From a virus, in the IMG/VR virus record IMGVR_UViG_3300020456_000143, positions 1 to 29,345 of that record: a stretch of 29,345 nt of DNA, one strand, 5' to 3'. Positions 2,346 to 29,256 of this stretch are shown in pieces (position 1 is the first letter of the stretch; every line of letters begins with the position of its first letter). The notes beneath the pieces were generated by a model. It made no database searches, had not been told where the DNA came from, and saw nothing but the letters and a program-made list of their open reading frames with translations. The translations under genes and the position numbers were made by a program.

Positions 2346-2450
2346 ATGCCTAGCGTTGAACTAATGGCTCGCGTTAATGAGCAGAAAGCTGCACAAAAAG
2401 TAGCTAAGCTGAAGTATCGCGGCGTTGCTTATCTAAAAACTGGCAAGTAG
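2346..2450 (+). CDS. Tiny protein with DUF4278-like LKYRGVAY core
   Basis: A 34-residue frame: MPSVELMARVNEQKAAQKVA followed by KLKYRGVAYLKTGK. The LKYRGVAY segment matches the core of the small cyanobacterial and cyanophage DUF4278 domain (consensus around L-x-YRGVxY); function unknown. The start lies 17 bases after the upstream hairpin. The stop codon TAG (2448-2450) lies inside the connector of the tRNA-like minihelix at 2442-2481, so the coding end and the RNA element overlap. Short length keeps confidence moderate. Confidence 0.55.
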   Translation: MPSVELMARVNEQKAAQKVAKLKYRGVAYLKTGK

Positions 2451-2481
2451 ACTTTTGGGGAGGTGCAATTCCTCCCCTGCC
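2442..2481 (+). ncRNA. tRNA-like minihelix (T-arm mimic) before the capsid gene
   Basis: GGCA (2442-2445) pairs with TGCC (2478-2481), and GGGGAGG (2457-2463) with CCTCCCC (2471-2477). The two stems share one uninterrupted 3' strand and so can stack as 11 pairs. The loop TGCAATT (2464-2470) has seven bases with C, R, A at the tRNA 56-57-58 positions and a closing G-C pair like 53-61. The connector is 11 bases and holds the stop codon of the small gene before it. Topology matches three elements at 27.3-28.8 kb. Seen by eye; no tRNA body and no encoded CCA. Confidence 0.5.
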
Positions 2482-2604
2482 TATTGGCGTTGGCCGGTAC
2501 GTCCGATACCCTTCGCCGTCTAGACGGTGGGATAGACCACACAAAAACTGAAAAAAATTTTCTCAAACGTTTGGGAGTAACGCTAACATTCCTTACTCCA
2601 TACA
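2482..2604 (+). promoter_or_regulatory. Structured leader of the capsid gene
   Basis: Non-coding leader with several inverted repeats: GGCG/CGCC (2486-2489 with 2514-2517) enclosing GGTA/TACC (2496-2499 with 2507-2510), then GTCTA/TAGAC (2518-2522 with 2533-2537). An A-rich stretch follows (2541-2560). Closest to the gene, GGAGTAA (2574-2580) pairs with TTACTCC (2593-2599). That places the only Shine-Dalgarno-like GGGAG about 27 bases from the ATG and inside a stem. No convincing promoter is recognised. Confidence 0.5.
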
Positions 2605-27035: not shown

Positions 27036-27041
27036 TATAGT
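27036..27041 (+). promoter_or_regulatory. -10-like box TATAGT ahead of the structured leader
   Basis: TATAGT lies six bases before the first arm of the long hairpin at 27047, so a transcript started from it would begin with that hairpin. No good -35 is present (GTGATT at 27014 with 16-base spacing is poor). The position, ahead of early-type genes, is where host RNA polymerase should start in a T7-like phage. Confidence 0.35.
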
Positions 27042-27046
27042 CAAAT

Positions 27047-27130
27047 GGAGATCTGATTTGATAGTTGAGTATCTCGAACTCTCCCTGAAAGGGTGAGGAG
27101 AGTTCTCAATCTCTCAACCATCAGATCTCT
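27047..27130 (+). ncRNA. Long interrupted hairpin at the start of the early leader
   Basis: Three nested stems in register: 27047-27057 with 27120-27130 (11 pairs, one G-T), GTTGAG (27064-27069) with CTCAAC (27113-27118, 6 pairs), and GAACTCTCC (27076-27084) with GGAGAGTTC (27097-27105, 9 pairs); the small apical region could close further through CCC/GGG. About 26 pairs in 84 bases is far beyond chance. It may be a 5' stabilising structure, a processing site or part of a longer RNA. Confidence 0.7.
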
Positions 27131-27157
27131 CCTCCCGAACCTCGACAACTTGAGAAC

Positions 27158-27233
27158 ACCATGCTGCGGCGACCGTGCCCGGCGATTGGGCTTCACACCT
27201 TCGGTGTGTTGGAGACATGCTCTGCAGCATGGT
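27158..27233 (+). ncRNA. Second leader hairpin domain with alternative pairing
   Basis: ACCATGCTGC (27158-27167) pairs perfectly with GCAGCATGGT (27224-27233), enclosing CACACC-TTC-GGTGTG (27194-27208). A competing local hairpin, CATGCT (27216-27221) with AGCATG (27226-27231), would use the same 3' arm. A further hairpin, GCGCCG (27260-27265) with CGGCGC (27272-27277), follows. Confidence 0.6.
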
Positions 27234-27298
27234 GGGCAAATGTAACGATGTGTGACAATGCGCCGAGCCTCCGGCGCCTCACAAGTATGATCAAGGCA

Positions 27299-27347
27299 TG
27301 CATCACGGTGCACCGGCGCCCCGCCCGTTCGAGTCGGGCTGATTGCA
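27299..27347 (+). ncRNA. tRNA-like minihelix before the KTSC-like gene
   Basis: TGCATCA (27299-27305) pairs with TGATTGCA (27340-27347) with one bulged T (27344), stacked on a perfect T-arm: GCCCG (27323-27327), TTCGAGT loop, CGGGC (27335-27339). The loop fits the tRNA T-loop consensus TTCRANY. The 17-base connector can form only a 3-pair hairpin (CGG-TGCA-CCG). No D or anticodon arm is possible in that space. Confidence 0.5.
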
Positions 27348-27350
27348 ATT

Positions 27351-27391
27351 GGGATCACAAGGTCCCACTCATTCACATCACTTAACATCAC
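27351..27391 (+). promoter_or_regulatory. Hairpin plus CATCAC leader of the KTSC-like gene
   Basis: GGGATC and its flanking T (27350-27356) pair with GGTCCCA (27361-27367) around ACAA, one pair being T-G. Then TTCACATCACTTAACATCAC (27372-27391) leads directly to the ATG at 27392. The same leader, with one mismatch and one gap, precedes the gene at 27708. There is no Shine-Dalgarno site. Confidence 0.6.
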
Positions 27392-27625
27392 ATGTTCAAA
27401 TCCACCTACACTGCACGCCGCAGCAGCTCCGCTGTTGACTTCCTGCACGTTGACTTGCTCAAGGGCAAGGCCTATGTGGACTTCGGCAAGCATGCCTACG
27501 TGTTCAGCAACGTCAGCCGCCGCGCCATTGCGGCTCTGATGATGGACGCTAACAAGTCCCTCGGGTTCTGGGTTAACGCCAATTGCACACAGGCCGAGCG
27601 CACTAACTGTCTCCGCCTCGTCTGA
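27392..27625 (+). CDS. KTSC-like small protein
   Basis: 77 residues. SSAVDFLHVDLLKGKAYVDF, KHAYVFSNVSRRAIAALMMD and NKSLGFWVNANC follow the KTSC domain pattern (S-x-[IV]..., L-x-V-x-F-x-x-G..Y.Y.xV, A.S.G.Y.N..I), although the eponymous KTSC residues are changed here. KTSC domains occur in small phage and bacterial proteins, some fused to RNA/DNA enzymes; function unknown. Synonymous choice is G+C-rich like the leader. It starts what looks like the early gene set; its stop codon lies within the first stem of a tRNA-like minihelix. Confidence 0.75.
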   Translation: MFKSTYTARRSSSAVDFLHVDLLKGKAYVDFGKHAYVFSNVSRRAIAALMMDANKSLGFWVNANCTQAERTNCLRLV

Positions 27626-27665
27626 GCTCACGCTAGATGCGGGGGATCGAATCCCCTGCTCAGAC
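27620..27665 (+). ncRNA. tRNA-like minihelix overlapping the KTSC-like stop codon
   Basis: The cleanest of the four. GTCTGAGC (27620-27627) pairs perfectly with GCTCAGAC (27658-27665), 8 pairs, adjoining a T-arm of GGGGG (27641-27645), loop ATCGAAT and CCCCT (27653-27657, last pair G-T). The 13-base connector (27628-27640) replaces D and anticodon arms. The TGA stop (27623-27625) is inside the acceptor-like 5' strand. No CCA is encoded (CTTGG follows). Confidence 0.6.
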
Positions 27666-27667
27666 CT

Positions 27668-27707
27668 TGGCACCTTGCGTGCCATATGTTCACATCACGT
27701 AACACAC
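27668..27707 (+). promoter_or_regulatory. Hairpin plus CATCAC leader of the DUF7222-like gene
   Basis: TGGCAC (27668-27673), loop CTTGC, GTGCCA (27679-27684), then TTCACATCACGTAACACAC (27689-27707) directly before the ATG at 27708. The leader repeats that at 27372, and this fixes the start choice at 27708. No Shine-Dalgarno. Confidence 0.6.
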
Positions 27708-28043
27708 ATGACCGTCGCAACCATGCCCAAGGTATATACTATCCTGGGCGAGGAGTTCGAGCTCGATGAGCTCAAGGACGTGGCCAACCATGGCGCCAAC
27801 ACTGGTGTGTCTGGTTTCACTTATTCTTCAGACTTGTACGACAAGTTCGAGAAGTATGAGCACGAGATCATGGACGCACTAGGTGAATGGTGCGATGATA
27901 ACTTTAGCCAGGGCGCAGAAAGTTACATTGCAGAACAATTGTCCTTTGATGATAAGTTCTGGACCATGCAACAGTTCAAAGAACTGGCCTGCTGGATGTA
28001 TCTAGAAATGCGTGCCTGGTTTATCGTAGGCGAAGACTCTTGA
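27708..28043 (+). CDS. DUF7222-like phage protein
   Basis: 111 residues: MTVATMPKVYTILGEEFELD, ELKDVANHGANTGVSGFTYS, then an acidic helical end. KVYxxxGxEFELDELKDVANHGxxxGVSGF is the typical opening of a small protein common in cyanophages and other phages (DUF7222 as I recall), function unknown. Start at 27708 is supported by the repeated leader; a second ATG at 27723 (MPKVYTI) or the longer frame from 27675 are alternatives. Strongly acidic, like many early phage inhibitors of host proteins, but that is only suggestive. Confidence 0.8.
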   Translation: MTVATMPKVYTILGEEFELDELKDVANHGANTGVSGFTYSSDLYDKFEKYEHEIMDALGEWCDDNFSQGAESYIAEQLSFDDKFWTMQQFKELACWMYLEMRAWFIVGEDS

Positions 28044-28047
28044 TCAC

Positions 28048-28069
28048 GGACCCAGCTTCGGCTGGGTTC
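28048..28069 (+). other. Intergenic UUCG hairpin
   Basis: GGACCCAGC (28048-28056), TTCG, GCTGGGTTC (28061-28069): nine pairs including one G-T, five bases after the DUF7222-like stop. A C(TTCG)G loop is very stable, but only CATCACACTC follows, without a T run, so mRNA processing or protection is as likely as termination. The following ATCAC echoes the leaders of the neighbouring genes. Confidence 0.65.
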
Positions 28070-28100
28070 CATCACACTCATCATTTTGCTGGCCTCACCT

Positions 28101-28763
28101 ATGTTCGTGCACATCACTGCCAAGTCTTCCAACAAAAAGACTGGTCCCATACCTGTCACCACAAGCGAGCAATCGTCTTGTGCACCATCGTGCCCGTTCA
28201 TTGGCAAGGGCTGTTACGCTAAGTCAGGGCCTCTCGCCCTACACTGGCGCAAGGTCTCAGCTGGTGAGCGTGGCACAGACTGGCAAGGTCTATGTGATTT
28301 CGTTCAACAACTCCCCGAAAAACAGCTTTGGCGTCATAACCAGGCTGGGGATCTTCCCCATATTTTCGGTGAGATAAACCCTGCGATGATGGCACACTTA
28401 GTTGTTGCCAATACAGGTCGTAGAGGTTACACTTACACACACCACACATTGAATGACTGGAATGTACAAATCCTTCAACGATCTAATCGCCAAGGATTCA
28501 CAGTTAATGCAAGCGTTGAGTCGTTATCTGCCGCAGATGATGCAATGGATAAGGGCTTGCCTGCATGTGTTGTTGTCCCTAATGATCGACCTGTGGCAAG
28601 CACTAGCCCCAGTGGTCGAAAAGTGGTTGTATGTCCTGCTCAAGAACGTGCAATCTCCTGTGCAGAATGCAAGCTTTGTGCCAACGCCAAGCGAACCTGC
28701 ATCGTAGCCTTTAAGGCTCACGGGACGGCAGCAAAAACCGTCAATCAATTGGTAGCTCAGTAA
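28101..28763 (+). CDS. Gp88/DUF7227-like phage protein with two Cys clusters
   Basis: 220 residues from ATG 28101 (TTG 28086 is an alternative). First cluster: C27, C31, C38 in SSCAPSCPFIGKGCYAKSGP. Second: C187, C190, C193, C200 in ISCAECKLCANAKRTCIVAF, ending FKAHGTAAK. This is the pattern of the phage Gp88/DUF7227 family. Function unknown; the Cys spacing suggests an iron-sulfur or zinc site, by inference. The last codons (QLVAQ stop) lie in the 5' part of a tRNA-like minihelix. Confidence 0.8.
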   Translation: MFVHITAKSSNKKTGPIPVTTSEQSSCAPSCPFIGKGCYAKSGPLALHWRKVSAGERGTDWQGLCDFVQQLPEKQLWRHNQAGDLPHIFGEINPAMMAHLVVANTGRRGYTYTHHTLNDWNVQILQRSNRQGFTVNASVESLSAADDAMDKGLPACVVVPNDRPVASTSPSGRKVVVCPAQERAISCAECKLCANAKRTCIVAFKAHGTAAKTVNQLVAQ

Positions 28764-28796
28764 TAGCTGGCAGCCAGGTGCAATGCCTGGCCTACC
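28751..28796 (+). ncRNA. tRNA-like minihelix overlapping the Gp88-like stop codon
   Basis: GGTAG (28751-28755) pairs with CTACC (28792-28796), stacked on GCCAGG (28773-28778), loop TGCAATG and CCTGGC (28786-28791): 11 pairs with an unbroken 3' strand. The loop is T-loop-like (C, A, A at positions 56-58; G55 instead of T). The 5' side reads TAGCTCAGT, identical to the start of many tRNA D-arms. The TAA stop (28761-28763) lies in the 17-base connector. Confidence 0.5.
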
Positions 28797-28800
28797 TATT

Positions 28801-28830
28801 GCCGCTCACTGAGAGCGGCTTACATCACCC
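28801..28830 (+). promoter_or_regulatory. Hairpin plus CATCAC leader of the coiled-coil gene
   Basis: GCCGCTC (28801-28807), loop ACTGA, GAGCGGC (28813-28819), then TTACATCACCC directly before the ATG at 28831. Third instance of minihelix, hairpin, CATCAC leader, gene. Confidence 0.6.
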
Positions 28831-29256
28831 ATGGACTACATGACTGCCTACGCACTCAAGAATGCAGATCCAAAGTACAAGGACTTTGATGAAAAGATCT
28901 CATTCACTCACAAAGAACGACGTAACATTAACATCAAACAGTGTCAAACACTGCGACGCATCAACAACATGATGCACGCTTTGGATGTTGTACGTGAGAA
29001 GTCTTACGACTTTGAAGAGTCTTCATCTAAGCTGGATAAAACGCTCAAGGATGCAACAACATCCGACGGCGAAGGTTGGTTCTGGACCTACCACAATGCC
29101 GGCGAAGAGATGGAGAAATGCATGATCGCACAATGTATCAAGGTCGCCAATCTGGCTGCTGATTATGATGCACTAGGATTGCGTCTCCAAGACCTGCGAC
29201 AACAGCAGGACAAACTCGGTGATCAAATTGTAAAAAAAGCTGAGGCTAACGCATGA
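28831..29256 (+). CDS. Hypothetical coiled-coil protein
   Basis: 141 residues, highly charged and helical. KSYDFEESSSKLDKTLKDAT and LAADYDALGLRLQDLRQQQD have heptad-like spacing; a Trp/Phe patch GEGWFWTYHNAGEEMEKCM lies between. No family recognised. Start follows the third CATCAC leader. The stop overlaps the next ATG (ATGA at 29253). Confidence 0.75.
   Translation: MDYMTAYALKNADPKYKDFDEKISFTHKERRNINIKQCQTLRRINNMMHALDVVREKSYDFEESSSKLDKTLKDATTSDGEGWFWTYHNAGEEMEKCMIAQCIKVANLAADYDALGLRLQDLRQQQDKLGDQIVKKAEANA

Follow-up and report, generated by a model that had tools for sequence, protein, structure and literature searches.

How a long cyanophage transcript becomes a set of separately usable messages is the question raised by a 29.3-kb stretch of viral DNA from IMG/VR (hereafter the window). 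It carries psbA, the genes for the major capsid protein (MCP), tail and terminase large subunit, thyX and then the early genes, and by this gene order it is a marine Synechococcus T7-like podovirus. Over the DNA around the early end, its nearest named relatives are S-RIP2, KBS-P-1A, S-CBP3 and S-TIP37. Abundant in the ocean, T7-like cyanophages include Syn5, for which just two phage promoters have been reported. A sequence-only reading of the window had described three tRNA-like minihelices in the spacers of the early genes (27299-27347, 27620-27665 and 28751-28796) and had proposed that host RNase P cuts the early mRNA there. All three are present, and a fourth lies about 120 nt upstream of the capsid gene, where our scanner placed it at 2442-2481. 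The elements and the features around them, all on the plus strand, are as follows.

2441..2482, + strand: capsid-leader element, class I, absent from the sequence-only reading (scan and covariance model, seed member); acceptor GGCA/TGCC; T-arm GGGGAGG TGCAATT CCTCCCC; discriminator A2483, then TTGG; predicted RNase Z cut between 2483 and 2484
2484..2604, + strand: conserved MCP leader starting with TTGGC; hairpins G..CCGGTACGTCCG..C, CCGTCTAGACGG and GTGGGATAGACCAC
27299..27347, + strand: element 1, class I (fold, covariance model, orthologues); acceptor TGCATCA/TGATTGCA, bulged; 5-bp D-like hairpin GGTGC ACCG GCGCC; T-arm GCCCG TTCGAGT CGGGC; discriminator A27348, then TTGG; predicted cut between 27348 and 27349
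27350..27367, + strand: second hairpin after element 1, TGGGATC ACAA GGTCCCA; ATG at 27392
27392..27625, + strand: small early ORF, phrog_7365; TGA stop at 27623-27625 within the acceptor strand of element 2
27620..27665, + strand: element 2, class II (fold z −3.4, scan, class II comparison); acceptor GTCTGAGC/GCTCAGAC; D-like hairpin CGC TAGAT GCG; T-arm with an A-T closing pair and loop TCGAA; C27666 at the discriminator position, then TTGG
27669..27683, + strand: second hairpin after element 2, GGCAC..GTGCC; ATG at 27708
28086..28763, + strand: early ORF, Pfam DUF7227; TAA stop at 28761-28763 within element 3
28750..28797, + strand: element 3, class I (fold, covariance model, seed member); acceptor GGTAG/CTACC; D-like hairpin CAG TAATAG CTG; T-arm GCCAGG TGCAATG CCTGGC; discriminator A28798, then TTGC; predicted cut between 28798 and 28799
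28801..28819, + strand: second hairpin after element 3, GCCGCTC ACTGA GAGCGGC; ATG at 28831

Element 1 has no clear upstream gene, and the protein of the ORF at 27392-27625 gave two weak matches only when used as a query. Other structured RNA is found nearby. Downstream of a Glutamine-II riboswitch (RF01704) at 2263-2329 comes a short ORF, with its ATG near 2346, that terminates inside the capsid tRNA-like element; in several relatives this riboswitch likewise lies near the capsid gene. The sole early gap without a tRNA-like element, 28044-28085, holds a 9-bp hairpin with a UUCG loop (z −5.7). The gene-poor region 27040-27250 before the first early gene contains two long hairpins (27047-27130, z −3.9, and about 27154-27240) that are possibly linked to genome ends or packaging.

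The elements are not canonical tRNAs: they have no anticodon arm, and only 7-20 nt separate acceptor and T-arm in the copies scored. ARAGORN found no tRNA in the window, and the Rfam tRNA model gave no match in 27150-28900 even at E 5. Across Rfam, at gathering and permissive thresholds alike, no family matches the elements; the only hits are Glutamine-II and, in locus L094, a complete tRNA. Taken alone, 27620-27665 folds better than nearly all of its shuffles, and the whole cassette 28745-28828 folds better than 200 of 200 (z −3.1). Folded alone, the remaining two are unremarkable as minimal elements (z −1.1 and −1.5), so that proof has to come from relatives.

A scanner requiring a T-arm of the form G-[NKYRANN]-C, an acceptor stem and NTTG 10-13 nt after the T-loop gave 39 forward-strand matches in 123 viral loci; the reverse strand gave 4, and shuffled sequences 0-2. 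We built a covariance model from relatives together with two window copies, those at 28750 and 2441. It recovers both seeds (28750-28802, 46.6 bits; 2441-2487, 39.2 bits) and also matches 27299-27352 (21.8 bits, E 0.0019), a copy that is not itself a seed but has an orthologue among the seeds. This class I model has no match at the 27620 element, which belongs to a sister group, class II, whose 17 examples have the loop TCRAA and covariation between the paired positions 54 and 60.

In a gap-free alignment of the 17 seed copies, obtained by filling up the inter-stem stretch with N, 92.6% of the cells are paired versus 59.8% in shuffles, and 11 of the 12 pairs have changed on both sides. The covariation score is 0.839, compared with 0.195 (sd 0.033) for shuffled alignments and at most 0.211 for slid versions. 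Because the seeds had partly been found via their pairing, IMG/VR was also scanned with a motif blind to the acceptor stem, AGGTGCAANNCCT-N9-ATTGSC. Nevertheless, 64 of the 79 distinct sites show an acceptor stem of 4 bp or more; of the 15 that do not, three are truncated or complex and the others resemble coding sequence. In orthologues of element 1 the stems differ in sequence and still pair, and the fold is again a three-way junction. Copies in relatives thus keep pairing through compensatory changes, in agreement with the selection on RNA structure that the sequence-only reading had deduced from the window. Its picture of a bare minihelix needs amending: acceptor and T-arm stand, and within the connector most copies have a D-arm-like hairpin (3 bp or longer in 71%, versus 31% when shuffled), which makes the element a three-way junction.

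In total, 154 distinct copies were collected from cyanopodoviruses, including P-SSP7, Syn5, S-SBP1 and S-TIP37, and from an unclassified lineage of 45-85 kb. Searched with the covariance model at E <= 1, 15 of the 23 cyanopodovirus records that are named or serve as references yield 32 copies between them. Early intergenic copies start at 602, 997 and 2562 in P-SSP7, at 587, 933 and 1325 in S-SBP1 and at 2699 in Syn5, with further ones in S-TIP37, NATL2A-133, S-RIP2 and others; the remaining cyanopodovirus sites are MCP leaders and, once, the vicinity of psbA. Contigs of the 45-85 kb lineage carry runs of up to four copies, spaced by ~250-350 nt, before small genes. Six of these contigs (L197, L205, L216, L217, L218 and L260) measure 52-84 kb, and the proteins of the lineage that were tried gave no match to cultured phages. 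No copies are found at E <= 0.01 in T7, roseophage CRP-114, cyanomyovirus S-TIM5 or the Synechococcus RCC307 genome.

The strand from T-loop to discriminator measures 12 nt in 132 of 154 copies and 13 nt in 20, whatever the split between T-stem and acceptor, and the acceptor/T-arm stack totals about 12 bp. N73 is an A in 128 of 154. The T-loop has A58 in 154, C56 in 149 and T54 in 134 of the 154 copies, with G or T at 55; the set was preselected for TTG, an NKYRANN loop and a G-C closing pair, so that part of the signal at U74, U75 and loop positions 55-58 comes from the selection itself. With the TTG filter removed, U74 is seen in 21 of 21 and U75 in 17 of 21 printed copies from named phages. 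The class I loop resembles a canonical TTCRANN T-loop closed by G-C. In class II, to which the 27620 element belongs, 54 and 60 are paired and the canonical T54-A58 arrangement is missing.

Host tRNAs from RCC307 and WH 5701 offer a direct comparison. They have the same 12-nt strand from T-loop to N73, and in the 26 examined there is no encoded CCA, T74 occurs in 23 and U at 74 or 75 in 25. G1-C72 is present in 18 of the 26 host tRNAs scored and in only 22 of the 154 elements. RNase Z clamps the tRNA elbow and measures distance, with CCA acting as an antideterminant (PMC4919913), and the Bacillus subtilis enzyme is stimulated ~200-fold when a uracil stands no more than 2 nt from the discriminator (PMC10100781). 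The elements fit such a CCA-less substrate, with a 12-nt strand from T-loop to discriminator, no CCA after N73 and U within 2 nt, and RNase Z is encoded in both genomes (TIGR02651, 346 and 354 bits). They equally present the acceptor/T stack of an RNase P substrate, and mostly lack the G1-C72 pair and the harmlessly removable leader that would go with it.

What lies on either side of the element is also regular. A second hairpin begins 1-2 nt past N73 in 103 of 122 non-capsid copies, with a mean stability of −9.3 kcal/mol versus −5.3 kcal/mol in shuffles, so that the hairpin noted after each window element is real and general. In early cassettes it often reads GC-stem-A(C/A)TGA-stem; for the hairpin after element 3, relatives keep the A(C/A)TGA loop and vary the stem. 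The CATCAC leader described alongside it is present in the window and is not conserved in relatives (3 of 99 leaders). What is conserved up to the ATG is G-poverty (9% G), and Shine-Dalgarno sequences are rare.

On the upstream side, a clear open frame precedes 132 copies, and in 117 of these its stop codon falls in the element's own 5' half, most commonly at +1 to +3 of the acceptor strand. In the window this applies to the ORFs starting at 27392 and 28086; an annotated example is S-SBP1 gp02, whose CDS ends at 1330 while the element starts from 1325. RNase P cuts 5' of the acceptor, and most such cuts would therefore leave upstream messages without a stop.

Among 104 MCP leaders, 102 of them long enough for classification, one and the same TTGG.. 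leader follows any of three modules. The tRNA-like element accounts for 33 leaders by strict scan and a further six variants by eye. An unrelated hairpin of the form stem-CACCTCAGAGTCGGA-stem occurs in 60 of the 104, and a complete tRNA-Gly(UCC) in two, namely Cyanophage NATL1A-7 (L137, 319-389, annotated) and L094 (371-443, 66 bits). Both tRNA-Gly genes have TTGGC directly after N73; in NATL1A-7 a gap of about 30 nt separates the end of the preceding CDS from the tRNA. A real tRNA thus fills the slot of the element, in agreement with tRNA mimicry. The unrelated hairpin has 13 or 14 nt from its apical loop to the base before TTG, near the strand length of the element. It has no Rfam match and is perhaps another nuclease site or a ribozyme; examples are L044 20912-20926 (S-RIP2), L131, L133, L136, L138 and L139. 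Of the long capsid leaders examined, only L103 is without a module: its upstream frame runs directly into the conserved leader, perhaps at a recombination or assembly joint.

Four features together point to the tRNA-processing machinery: a true tRNA can take the element's place in register, the strand measures 12 nt, the loop is like that of a T-arm and a U follows N73. The embedded stops and the scarcity of G1-C72 weigh against giving the main cut to RNase P, as the sequence-only reading did. Our proposal is accordingly that RNase Z cuts once, just behind N73, and that this one event would make both message ends; we consider it probable, if not strongly so. The elements would act as anticodon-arm-less tRNA mimics that punctuate polycistronic phage transcripts. 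With the acceptor stem stacked on the T-arm next to the small D-arm-like hairpin, host RNase Z would grip the elbow and cut the CCA-less precursor between N73 and U74. The upstream message would receive a folded tRNA-like 3' end and retain its own stop codon. The downstream message would start with 1-2 unpaired bases before its hairpin, and such a capped 5' end should resist 5'-end-dependent decay. We count the role in dividing phage mRNA as supported; cutting as such, RNase Z as its agent and stabilization by the new ends we infer from sequence features. Counting against this reading are the loops of class II without the T54-A58 arrangement, the unrelated hairpin in more than half of the capsid leaders, and the stop codon in the acceptor strand, where terminating ribosomes would disturb the fold. 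In B. subtilis, moreover, precursors that carry a long 5' extension are poor substrates for RNase Z, and a prior cut by RNase P might therefore be needed.

Were RNase P to act alone, cutting 5' of the acceptor stem so that the tRNA-like fold caps the downstream message, the stack length would suit it, since the enzyme gauges the length of the acceptor/T stack and also takes RNAs other than tRNA as substrates if they offer one (PMC4919913), and at 27299, with no clear upstream gene, the cut would be harmless. The loss of upstream stops and the rarity of G1-C72 make this very unlikely, and the U after N73 and the hairpin 1-2 nt beyond it would be left unexplained. Joint action of RNase P and RNase Z, releasing a ~45-nt tRNA-like RNA, is possible though on the unlikely side. 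The complete tRNA-Gly in the capsid slot would be expected to need both enzymes, and mitochondrial tRNA punctuation and mascRNA, in which both cut, offer an analogy. Upstream messages would then lose their stop after first use, or RNase P would act only once translation had ceased. The stops within the element speak against this route, and so does NATL1A-7, which carries the real tRNA and whose upstream CDS stops ahead of it.

The stop overlap also fits a scheme with no cutting. The elements would then be folds that block 3'-5' exonucleases, or would regulate translation through the ribosomes that terminate in the acceptor strand. An mRNA can be stabilized by folds at its 3' and 5' ends, and in the capsid slot a hairpin unlike a tRNA can substitute for the element. 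We regard this as unlikely: the tRNA-like T-loop, the 12-nt strand, the U after N73 and the exchange for a tRNA would all be unnecessary. Decayed tRNA genes or integration remnants without present function would account for the likeness to tRNA, and several T7-like cyanophages do carry an integrase. The strong covariation rules them out for practical purposes, and copy numbers that reach four or more in one genome, orthologous copies with different yet paired stems and regular placement before start codons all point the same way.

The RNase Z reading leads to a wider proposal that we hold tentatively: that many cyanobacterial viruses may use the host tRNA 3'-end nuclease as a maker of mRNA ends, by means of stop-carrying mimics at which one cut makes both ends, possibly gated by translation termination, with a full tRNA-Gly or an unrelated hairpin of nearly equal strand length as alternatives in the capsid slot. 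The elements are an RNA family absent from Rfam, and we found no earlier description of them in cyanophages in the literature searched, which included few subscription journals. They offer a base-resolved answer to the question posed at the outset, testable in such model pairs as P-SSP7 with MED4 and Syn5 with WH8109, and they are natural, short and composable RNA-processing parts. If the proposal is true, tRNA punctuation, known from mitochondria, would extend to bacterial viruses.

In mitochondrial transcripts, tRNAs and t-elements between genes mark the sites at which polycistronic RNA is cut. The phage elements are likewise tRNA-like folds between genes, here as predicted cut sites, and differ in belonging to a bacterial DNA phage, in having no anticodon arm, in containing the upstream stop and in the hairpin after the predicted cut. 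MALAT1 mascRNA and MEN-beta menRNA are tRNA-like folds on long RNAs, processed by RNase P and RNase Z. The proposed making of ends by tRNA enzymes is shared with them, but those are single copies on eukaryotic lncRNAs served by two enzymes, whereas the phage elements are short intergenic copies in mRNA. The early mRNA of T7 is cut by host RNase III at long irregular hairpins; the division of polycistronic messages of a T7-like phage by a host endonuclease would be common to both, with a different enzyme and a different RNA, and the model of the phage elements finds nothing in T7. Plant RNA virus tRNA-like structures of the TYMV type also mimic acceptor and T-arm, but are 3' terminal, pseudoknotted and aminoacylated, while the phage elements sit inside the transcript, can do without a pseudoknot and have no encoded CCA. 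With the CCA-less tRNA precursors of marine Synechococcus itself the elements share the 12-nt strand to N73, U74 and the absence of CCA; they are set apart from them by the missing anticodon arm and variable loop, the rare G1-C72 and the stop codon inside.
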